Shown: positions 26,995 through 30,040 of the stretch, in pieces
How positions within the stretch are numbered: position 1 is the stretch's first letter
How the letters are laid out: each line of letters begins with the position of its first letter
Source: Burkholderia sp. BCC0322
GTDB taxonomy: Bacteria > Pseudomonadota > Gammaproteobacteria > Burkholderiales > Burkholderiaceae
Assembly: GCF_902833045.1 (NCBI RefSeq)
Contig: NZ_CADFDU010000011.1
Span: 1-64,000, forward strand
Direction: 5' to 3'
Length of the DNA stretch: 64,000 nt
Position numbers and translations under genes: made by a program
Notes under the pieces: generated by a model
Told to the model about the DNA's origin: nothing
Seen by the model: the letters and a program-made list of their open reading frames with translations, nothing else
Databases searched by the model: none

Positions 26995-27822
26995 TCAACG
27001 CTGGCAGGTCGGGCAGAAATAGGTCGACCGCTGACCTTGCACGATCTGGCGGATCGGCGTGCCGCATACGCGGCATGGCTGGCCCGCACGGTCGTAGACG
27101 AAGCAGTCGAGCTGGAAATAGCCGCTTTCGCCGTTGCTGCCGACAAAATCGCGCAATGTGCTGCCGCCGCGCTCGATCGCGTCGGCAAGCGTTGCGCGCA
27201 CTGCGTCGGCCAGCCGCTCGTAGCGCGGCAGCGACACCTTGCCGGCGGCCGTCGTCGGCCGGATGCCGGCGCGAAACAGGCTCTCCGACGCATAGATGTT
27301 GCCGACGCCGACGACCATGTCTCCCGCGAGCAGCGCCTGCTTGACCGACACGGTACGGCCGCGCGTGCGCGCGTGCAGGAGCGCCCCGGTAAACGCCGGC
27401 GAGAACGGCTCGACGCCCAGGCTCGCGAGGAGCGGATGCGCATGGACGTCACCTGCTTCGCGCGGGTGCCAAAGCACCGCACCGAAGCGGCGCGGATCAC
27501 GGAACCGCAGCACGAATTCGTCGAAGATCCAGTCGATGTGGTCATGCTTCGCGGCGACCGGCACGCCCGCCGCGGGCAGCACGCGCAGCGTGCCCGTCAT
27601 GCCGAGATGGACGATGAACCAGCCCGCGTCGACCTCGAACAGCAGGTACTTGCCGCGACGCTCGACGGCGAGCACCTCACGTGCGCGCAACTGCTCGGCG
27701 AGCCCGGCCGGCACGGGCCAGCGCAGCATCTCGGTACGGACGTCGACACGCTCGACGCGGCGGCCCGCGACAAAGGGCTCGATGCCCCGGCGCGTGACTT
27801 CGACTTCTGGCAACTCTGGCAT
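26995..27822 (-). CDS. mutM: Formamidopyrimidine-DNA glycosylase
   Basis: Excises 8-oxoguanine and Fapy lesions and nicks the strand. It has 275 residues. Catalytic Pro2/Glu3 are in [16 protein letters not shown], Lys58 region RRGKYLLF, and the C-terminal zinc finger C-x2-C-x16-C-x2-C is complete (CRVCGTP...CPTCQ). The frame extends upstream into the palindromic element, but catalysis needs Pro2 at the N-terminus, so the ATG at 27822 is certain. The element starts 19 bases upstream and so sits in its promoter region. Confidence 0.98.
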
Positions 27823-27840
27823 GTTTTGCGGGTCTGAGAC

Positions 27841-28153
27841 TAGGGTCTGTTTACATATGGAACGCTCATGCGTTGCCACGAGAACGGCCGCTCGCGAGGC
27901 GCGCGACGCCGCGAATACTCACGTATTCGCAAGAAGCGCAACGCGGCGAGCGGCCGTTCTCGTGGCAACCCCAAATTAAAAAATTCCTGTCACGGGAATG
28001 CCCGAAATTGCCCGCATGGCGGCGTCGCTCGTCGCTTGTCCCCCAAGGGGACTTCCTTCGGGGCGTTTGGCTCGCCAAACGGCACTCCTCGCTTCTTGCC
28101 ATGCGGGCAATTTCGGGCATTCGCATGTGCGTTCCATATGTAAACAGACCCTA
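27841..28153. mobile_element. 313-bp MITE-like element with nested perfect inverted repeats
   Basis: Outer arms 27841-27872 and 28122-28153 are inverted repeats matching at 31 of 32 positions; each begins TAGGGTCTGTTTACATATGG from the outside. Inside lie a perfect 24-bp inverted repeat (27872-27895 with 27946-27969), whose loop holds an 8-bp hairpin (GCGAATAC/GTATTCGC, 27911-27930), and a perfect 25-bp inverted repeat (27996-28020 with 28098-28122), whose loop holds two small hairpins (28038-28052 and 28065-28080). No transposase is encoded. If the outermost TA is a target duplication, the tips are GGGTCTGTTTA..., compatible with IS5-group or IS630/mariner-like enzymes; this is inference. It separates divergent mutM and the TPR gene. 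Confidence 0.75.
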
Positions 28154-28216
28154 TCACGATCGTGCGTGTATTGTAGCGAGCGCGTTACAATCGGTTGAAA
28201 CATCGAACGGATTTCC

Positions 28217-30040
28217 ATGACCCTGCCCTCGAAGCTGCTTCTGAAGCGCCCCGCCGCCGTGCGCGGCGCGCGCGCCTTCCCGGTCCGCCGCGCACTCGGC
28301 GCCGCGCTGCTTGCCGCCTGGACCCTCACCGCCTTCCCGGCTCACGCGCAGGATCCGGCATCGGACGACGCGGAGTCGCAGGGTGCGTTCGAGCATGTGA
28401 TGCCGGACGAGCAGAAGAATCTCCCCGGCGTTCCGCTGACGAGCCAGATCGTCTACCAGGTGCTCGCCGCCGAGGTCGCGCTGCAGCGTAACCAGCCCGC
28501 GCCGGCCTACCAGACCTACCTCGCGCTCGCCCGCGACACGCGCGATCCGCGCATGGCGCAGCGCGCGACCGAAATTGCGCTGGGCGCGCAGAGCCCGGCC
28601 GATGCGCTGTCCGCCGCGAACCTGTGGCGCCAGTACGCACCGGATTCGAATCGCGCATCGCAGGTCGACGCCGCGCTGCTGGTGCTGGCCGGCAAGCCGG
28701 CCGACGCGCAGCCGATGCTCGCGCGCGAGCTGGCCCGGGCGACCGGCGAGACGCGCGGCCCGGCGATCCTCGCGCTGCAGGCGTTGCTGGTGCGCGGCCC
28801 CGACCGCGTCGGCGGCCTCGCGGTGCTGAAGGACATGCTGAAGAACGACCTGAACCGGCCCGAAGCCCAGCTCGCGATCGCGCGCCAGCAGCTCGCGGTC
28901 GACGACAAGGACGGCGCCGCGCAGTCGCTGAAGCAGGCGCTGCAGATCCGCCCCGACTACCTGCCGGCGGCCCTGATGCTGTCGCAGATGGGGCCCGCGG
29001 AACGCGCGGCGGGCATCGTGTCGTTCGAGAAGTATGTTCAGCAGAATCCGAAGTCGCGCGATGCGCGGCTCGCGCTGTCACAACTCTATCTCGCCGACGA
29101 TCGCCTCGACGACGCGCAGAAGCAGTTCGAGACGATGCGCAAGCTCGACTCGAAGGATCCGACGCCGCTGATGGCGCTCGCGCTGATCAAGATCCAGCAG
29201 AAGAAGCTCGACGAAGCGACCGTCTACCTGAAGCAGTACGTACAGCTCGGCGACAAGCAGCCGAACCTCGACGTCGGCCAGGGCTACATCTACCTCGCGC
29301 AGATCGCGATCGACCAGAACAACGATGGGCAGGCGTCGCAATGGCTCGACAAGGTCGACCAGACGAGTCAGCACTACCTCCCCGCGCAGATCACGCGCGC
29401 GCAACTGCTGCAGAAACAGGGCAAGACCGACGAGGCGCGCAAGGTGCTCGACGACCTGCCGATCACGGATCCGCGCGATGCGGCCGTGGTCGCACGCACC
29501 GACGCATCGATCCTGTTCACCGCGAAGCGCTATCCGGAAGCCGAGGCACGGCTCGGGCAGGCGGTCCAGGACTTCCCTGACGATCCCGACCTGCGCTACG
29601 ACTACGCGATGGCGGCCGAAAAGACCGGCCACTACACGACGATGGAAAAGCAGCTGCGCGAGCTGATCCGCACGCAGCCCGATAATCCGCAGGCGTACAA
29701 CGCGCTCGGCTATTCGCTCGCCGACCGCAACCAGCGGCTGCCCGAAGCCAGCAAGCTGATCGACAAGGCGATGGCGCTCGCGCCGAACGACGCCTACATC
29801 ATGGACAGCCTCGGTTGGGTAAAGTACCGGATGGGCGATACGGCCGGCGCGGCGAAGGTGCTGCGGCGTGCGTACGAACTGCAGCCGAACGCAGAGATCG
29901 GTGCGCATCTCGGCGAAGTGCTGTGGAAGAGCGGCGCGCAGGACGACGCACGTTCCGCGTGGCGTGACGCACAGAAGCTCGAGCCGGACAACGAAACGCT
30001 CGTGCAAACGCTGAAACGCCTCCAGATCAACGGTCTCTGA
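28217..30040 (+). CDS. Tetratricopeptide-repeat protein, exported
   Basis: 607 residues. A signal peptide (LGAALLAAWTLTAFPAHA, cleavage near residue 44) is followed by TPR units through most of the protein (for example YLPAQITRAQLLQKQGKTDEA-type units and NPQAYNALGYSLADRNQRLPEA). This is the conserved gene before lolB in betaproteobacteria. It is likely a periplasmic or outer-membrane-associated scaffold, but no specific function is known to me. Its stop overlaps the lolB ATG by one base. Confidence 0.88.
   Translation: MTLPSKLLLKRPAAVRGARAFPVRRALGAALLAAWTLTAFPAHAQDPASDDAESQGAFEHVMPDEQKNLPGVPLTSQIVYQVLAAEVALQRNQPAPAYQTYLALARDTRDPRMAQRATEIALGAQSPADALSAANLWRQYAPDSNRASQVDAALLVLAGKPADAQPMLARELARATGETRGPAILALQALLVRGPDRVGGLAVLKDMLKNDLNRPEAQLAIARQQLAVDDKDGAAQSLKQALQIRPDYLPAALMLSQMGPAERAAGIVSFEKYVQQNPKSRDARLALSQLYLADDRLDDAQKQFETMRKLDSKDPTPLMALALIKIQQKKLDEATVYLKQYVQLGDKQPNLDVGQGYIYLAQIAIDQNNDGQASQWLDKVDQTSQHYLPAQITRAQLLQKQGKTDEARKVLDDLPITDPRDAAVVARTDASILFTAKRYPEAEARLGQAVQDFPDDPDLRYDYAMAAEKTGHYTTMEKQLRELIRTQPDNPQAYNALGYSLADRNQRLPEASKLIDKAMALAPNDAYIMDSLGWVKYRMGDTAGAAKVLRRAYELQPNAEIGAHLGEVLWKSGAQDDARSAWRDAQKLEPDNETLVQTLKRLQINGL

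Follow-up and report, generated by a model that had tools for sequence, protein, structure and literature searches.

The Correia, ERIC and RUP elements are bacterial MITEs or palindromic repeats, as are those of Pseudomonas syringae (PMC3189936). Elements of this kind are short, carry no transposase, end in inverted repeats and occur in many copies, and the Burkholderia element described below is likewise built and spread. For the insertion sequences of the IS5/IS427 group, the table passages of PMC3281130 used here give lengths of 832-865 bp, an IR of, for example, 14/13 and a DR of 2 in all but one of their entries. Template-switch traces in rRNA and microRNA genes are the subject of PMC8794818, whose authors term the evidence for stem maintenance circumstantial.

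The element lies between mutM and a TPR-repeat protein gene in the window, that is, the whole stretch of 64,000 nucleotides of Burkholderia sp. BCC0322 that was analysed. Its parts and its neighbours are the following.

26995..27822, minus strand: mutM (formamidopyrimidine-DNA glycosylase), start codon 27820-27822
27841..28153, plus strand: complete MITE with its two flanking TA dinucleotides, 313 bp
27841..27842, no strand: left TA, taken as the target dinucleotide from the pattern at other loci
27841..27872, plus strand: left outer arm, the 14 bases after the TA (GGGTCTGTTTACAT) being identical to the left tip of an IS5-family IS of ~830 bp
27872..27895, plus strand: 5' arm of hairpin A, matching the 3' arm at 24/24
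27911..27930, plus strand: small hairpin in loop A, GCGAATAC-TCAC-GTATTCGC, from the predicted fold
27946..27969, minus strand: 3' arm of hairpin A, pairing with the 5' arm at 24/24
27996..28020, plus strand: 5' arm of hairpin B, matching the 3' arm at 25/25
28038..28064, plus strand: 27-nt module of loop B that ~313-bp copies have and ~285-bp copies lack (20-sequence alignment)
28098..28122, minus strand: 3' arm of hairpin B, pairing with the 5' arm at 25/25
28122..28153, minus strand: right outer arm, matching the left arm at 31/32
28152..28153, no strand: right TA, taken as the target dinucleotide from the pattern at other loci
28170..28191, no strand: palindrome ATTGTAGCGAGCGCGTTACAAT, lying beyond the element in the mutM/TPR intergenic region; close relatives conserve it
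28217..30040, plus strand: TPR-repeat protein gene, start 63 bp from the element

It is clear that the nested inverted repeats reported in the preliminary description are real, with outer arms that match at 31/32, inner arms that match at 24/24 (A) and 25/25 (B), and a fold far below that of shuffled sequences. Folded as single-stranded DNA, 27821-28173 gives -135.4 kcal/mol, whereas its dinucleotide shuffles give -65.9 +/- 4.6 (n = 100; z = -15), and 0/100 shuffles are as stable. Extension of arm pair B to 30 bp (27991-28020 / 28098-28127) brings just 2 mismatches, both in the first five positions. The TA that had been noted at both tips is present at 27841-27842 and 28152-28153. With regard to the claim that the element is non-coding, several short ORFs traverse 27841-28153; a transposase gene is absent, and the ORFs that cross the element are short or belong to the neighbouring genes. 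With up to 3 mismatches allowed, the element tip has no further occurrence in the window.

Copies of the element fall into size classes of about 285, 313 and 340 bp because of the 27-nt module of loop B (20 sequences aligned), and all three ~340-bp copies in this alignment hold a second, inverted 27-nt module inside the same hairpin. The 31-nt stretch of loop B at 28036-28066 (element positions 196-226) has 100% matches in other genera (G103, G189, G207 and G097), where the rest of the element has no listed match. In G103 and G189, two inverted copies of this stretch stand ~500 bp apart, and it resembles a small repeat in its own right.

The comparison with other Burkholderia genomes, which had been proposed for this element, gave matches at E <= 0.001 in 62/65 genomes of the genus; some of the matches are weak, and a single genome has as many as 43. 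These 65 genomes exclude the source strain, and the nearest relative among them shares 50% of sampled 31-letter words. Across the Burkholderiaceae, 90/299 genomes and 9/25 genera have matches, many of which are weak or partial. The exact 20-base arm word was found in 78 named stretches, all but four from records with Burkholderia in the title; the stretches from Paraburkholderia and Trinickia carry the element tips, while the matches in Amycolatopsis and Thiomonas miss the tips and were rejected as chance. Phage records gave no match to the element, two plasmid-collection records held no annotated features at the element copies, and among the open-licence papers listed by literature searches no title or abstract start describes this Burkholderia repeat family. 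A total of 118 loci was examined, 2 of which were cut by contig ends and yielded no element; the 116 with an element include 6 duplicates and so provide 110 distinct copies, which are those closest to the window and not a random sample. Grouping by flanks placed 111 copies at 68 sites. An ad hoc, unvalidated gene calling on joined flanks in this GC-rich DNA put 29/57 copies "inside" genes, and this result was discarded.

TA stands on both flanks in 78/110 distinct copies. In these 78 copies the base before the TA is C in 48 and T in 27 (75/78 pyrimidine) and the base after it is G in 42 and A in 27 (69/78 purine), and the target context is Y-TA-R. The joined flanks of four singly occupied sites, none of which is mutM, led to relatives whose empty site carries a single TA at the junction. 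The cleanest case is that of L022 compared with L344, where the empty site has one TA and is exact (1/1 relative). For L010 and L018 a one-TA empty site is found in 1/1 and 3/3 relatives, respectively, which are more diverged, and at the L026 site the TA is kept in 3/17 aligned relatives (L343, L345 and L346), the other 14 being without it. These comparisons show, at loci other than mutM, a two-base TA duplication like that of the IS described below.

At the locus in the window, the identity of mutM comes from the Pfam domains Fapy_DNA_glyco, H2TH and zf-FPG_IleRS, and the gap between its start codon and the element is 18 bp. The insertion splits the mutM start codon from the conserved upstream sequence that holds the palindrome 28170-28191, and the element would, as judged from this arrangement, form part of the mutM leader. 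The mutM frame on the minus strand is open through the left arm, with a possible in-frame upstream start at 27879 (27823-27879). On the same strand, the outer arm places an ATG immediately ahead of TAA.

In 64 genomes with the mutM site, 8 have a copy (about 250-316 bp, one of which ends at a contig end), 6 have a derivative of 166-168 bp, 2 have other sequence of ~430-450 bp and 48 are empty. The mutM copy is an old insertion shared across several species, the flanks being ~95-98% identical to the window. The six derivatives have lost the large loops and their outer arms have diverged, and hairpin B is kept in six and hairpin A in four. The fidelity of the repeats had been read as implying recent spread; such spread is not needed to explain it, because several species share the insertion at mutM and its arms have since changed in pairs. 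The TA duplication, for which a comparison with empty sites had been suggested, is documented by the one-TA junctions of the four other loci and not by mutM itself: the expected empty-site sequence CTATCACG occurs in 0/48 of the empty mutM sites, and for this reason the duplication cannot be demonstrated there. Many of the 48 read CTGGATTCACG; 29/48 have no TA in the stretch and 19/48 have one at another position. A second site (L199/L210 compared with L243) is likewise without the expected empty-site sequence. Loss of the pre-insertion allele at mutM could explain this, as could a change to the site during insertion or by imprecise excision. The two genomes with other sequence of ~430-450 bp, which lies between mutM and the TPR gene, are G039 and G043 (L121 and L122), and G010 (L104, G010:C1:709950-713800) carries an insertion of ~2.9 kb in the conserved mutM-TPR stretch, to the right of the MITE site.

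Transposases with PF13340 (DUF4096) were sought in 15 MITE-bearing genomes, which gave 88 matches, 30 of which were examined as loci for their tips. Among these 30 loci, matching tips were seen at one, L125. The IS at this locus has 830 bp and two overlapping frames, which match NF033580 (transpos_IS5_3) with 136 and 161 bits (cut-off 110) and also Pfam PF13340 (DUF4096) and PF01609 (DDE_Tnp_1). Its closest full-length matches have 827-830 bp, and relatives, often broken, are found in 22/65 genomes of the genus and also on plasmids of Burkholderia, Pandoraea, Paraburkholderia and others. The search for an IS with the tips of the element has thus found one, of the IS5 family, the left tip of which equals the MITE tip at 14/14, with TA outside, in 7/13 IS loci; the right tip is present at 12 of the 13 loci and differs there by 1-4 mismatches. 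Size, IR and DR would place this IS in the IS427 group. Given the 14/14 tip match with an IS of ~830 bp, the element was likely moved by an IS5/IS427-type transposase. All 15 screened genomes also hold two DUF4096 frames ~26-27.5 kb apart in opposite orientation, apparently as a conserved pair (e.g., G018:C1:2382223 and 2408699; G022:C1:1567647 and 1593889).

Of the two kinds of mover that had been proposed, IS5 or IS630, the first agrees with the tips shared with the IS5-type IS. IS630 elements use a TA target, and a MITE moved by an IS630/Tc1-type enzyme would be compatible with the TA found here, as IS427 is; the 14/14 match of the tip to an IS5/IS427-type IS, in a screen that covered PF13340 transposases, and the Y-TA-R target make this origin highly improbable. 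In six MITE-rich genomes (G011, G022, G033, G035, G054 and G060) no match to the IS was seen among the 8 candidates scored per genome, whereas G007, G018 and G062 do match it, mostly in part. In those six genomes no current mover is shown, and it may be gone. The reading of the element as a MITE is supported by its many dispersed copies, its TA flanks, the single-TA empty sites elsewhere and an IS with the same tips. The contrary picture, a single copy with no empty site and no IS that shares the tips, is contradicted on all three points by the genomes compared, which do not include the source strain.

The 30-bp outer arms differ by a mean of 0.78 mismatches within a copy and by 3.0-3.2 between copies, which shows that the arms of one copy agree better than the arms of different copies. 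Covariation was studied in an alignment of 111 copies with 85 pairs and 9430 pair cells, where a spurious 4-bp helix (columns 188-191) was removed from the pair counts (if retained, G-U 213 and A-C 36). Watson-Crick pairs make up 98.05% of the 9430 cells, against 94.0 +/- 0.1 in 200 partner permutations and 25-34% with sliding partners, and at 35/85 pairs at least two Watson-Crick types occur. At least two orthologous copies are available at 18/68 sites, with 61 copies in those 18, and the comparison of orthologs gives 59 paired Watson-Crick changes versus 39 G-U, 23 A-C and 32 other mismatch states. Parsimony on the tree of copies, which is poorly resolved for such short repeats, gives double changes consisting of 66 transitions and 45 transversions. 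At mutM itself, four copies have A-T at alignment column 14 and three have G-C, while the C-G of the remaining one, L157, is private to it among the 111 copies. It is therefore shown that paired changes, transversion pairs included, arise at a single orthologous site. Loop A is inverted between intact arms in 1/103 typed copies (of 117), namely L020, and is not inverted in its orthologs L013 and L024; for loop B, inversion was found in 0/104 typed copies.

From these observations, it is considered likely that the element is an IS427-type MITE with an old insertion at mutM and with arms that are kept matched by DNA-level copying of one arm from the other. An IS427-type transposase would move the element in trans, now or in the past. 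After insertion the three nested stems would persist, with one arm serving as the DNA template from which the other is rewritten, either by template switching at the replication fork or by conversion that involves an extruded hairpin. Selection on DNA pairing may also contribute, as may recombination of the two arms or exchange between copies, and some of the paired changes may come from variants spread by transposition or inter-copy recombination.

The paired changes could also be ordinary compensatory mutations under selection on a transcribed RNA, be it a repeated small RNA or an mRNA leader. The strong covariation is what such selection would give, and the stems vary less than the loops at orthologous sites (variable columns 192/3060 paired versus 269/2387 unpaired). 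Moreover, G-T persists at two alignment columns, 23 and 64, where G-T and A-C stand at 47:1 and 19:0 copies, a pattern in favour of either the RNA reading or old subfamilies. A selected RNA should tolerate G-U and not A-C. The single changes counted by parsimony are G-U 51, A-C 34 and other 41, and with columns 23 and 64 excluded they are 35, 33 and 39; with one copy per site, G-U and A-C occupy 56 and 12 cells, or 17 and 11 without the two columns. In the RNase P RNA of 30 genomes of the family, used as control, G-U is 83 versus A-C 13 (81:13 in a run with 27 sequences), and the element differs from this yardstick, imperfect given its deeper divergence and a structure predicted from the alignment, with Fisher p = 7e-5 with the two columns and 1e-6 without them. 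Singleton states point the same way, with G-U 13 and A-C 21 for the element and 21 and 8 for RNase P (p = 0.01). Transversions make up 38/86 of the double changes in RNase P compared with 45/111 in the element, and for this reason their ratio does not separate the RNA from the DNA reading. Rfam returned nine matches up to E = 5, all well under the gathering score (the best has 28.7 bits versus 268), and a scan of 27700-28320, which is a weak test, found no promoter- or terminator-like sites. Overall, the mismatch pattern bears little sign of RNA selection, and an origin of the paired changes in a selected RNA is regarded as quite unlikely. The suggestion that a structured RNA or a cruciform affects mutM is not supported, given the lack of a match at the gathering score of any Rfam family, the mismatch pattern and the 48/64 empty mutM sites; a role at the DNA level may exist. 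The weak preference for G-U, together with the one inverted loop, favours arm-to-arm copying of DNA.

Near-symmetric mismatch types would fit any constraint at the DNA level, among them selection on DNA pairing, as a cruciform or single-strand hairpin that a transposase or host protein might need, acting on ordinary mutation. The mutM derivatives, which keep hairpin B (six) and hairpin A (four) with diverged outer arms, are in line with this explanation. The short tips that IS5-type transposases bind are recognised as double-stranded DNA and do not include the inner stems; moreover, each paired transversion would require a specific second mutation, and one loop inversion would be unexpected, so that selection on DNA pairing with ordinary mutation appears unlikely. 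Another way to obtain paired changes at one site is the repeated replacement of whole copies, by recombination between dispersed copies or by re-insertion, which would import the changes ready-made. Some orthologous pairs do differ at many pairs (L220/L234, with ten variable pairs) and several variants recur at different loci. Against this stand the private paired changes, such as the C-G of column 14 in L157, and the finding that among orthologous pairs no whole element is flipped with respect to both flanks, four having been matched on one flank alone. Replacement, besides, just moves variants, and the matched arms would still need an origin. It is for these reasons held to be rather improbable as the source of the paired changes. 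Arm-to-arm copying of DNA can be carried one step further, to the proposal that the family is a natural record of this process in bacteria, with both strands of long stems changing together in dozens of copies at dozens of sites, little sign of the wobble intermediates that an RNA tolerates, and palindromes that template switching would restore and keep near-perfect in the absence of selection; confidence in this broader proposal is evenly balanced.

As a MITE, the element is ordinary though abundant, and its interest lies in the paired evolution of its arms. Covariation is commonly taken as a sign of functional RNA, and the occurrence of strong covariation in mobile DNA with little sign of tolerance for wobble pairs is a caution for the discovery of structured RNAs. 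With its replicate copies, the family can also be used to test whether stems stay matched through template switching alone, for which PMC8794818 describes its own evidence as circumstantial.

The hairpins treated in PMC8794818 and those of the Burkholderia element have in common paired changes beyond wobble intermediates, loop inversion and near-perfect stems; the data there are from rRNA and microRNA genes, whereas here they come from dozens of copies of mobile DNA. In the tables of PMC3281130, IS1248 (IS5/IS427) has 832 bp, an IR of 14/13 and a DR of 2, and the Burkholderia IS fits it in size and IR length. This IS427-type partner shares with the MITE the 14/14 tip, the TA flanks and the target context. 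Unlike it, the MITE has no transposase and has three long stems, none of which was noticed on reading the unfolded IS sequence. From bacterial MITEs and palindromic repeats such as those of Pseudomonas syringae, the Burkholderia element differs in its nested three-stem design.
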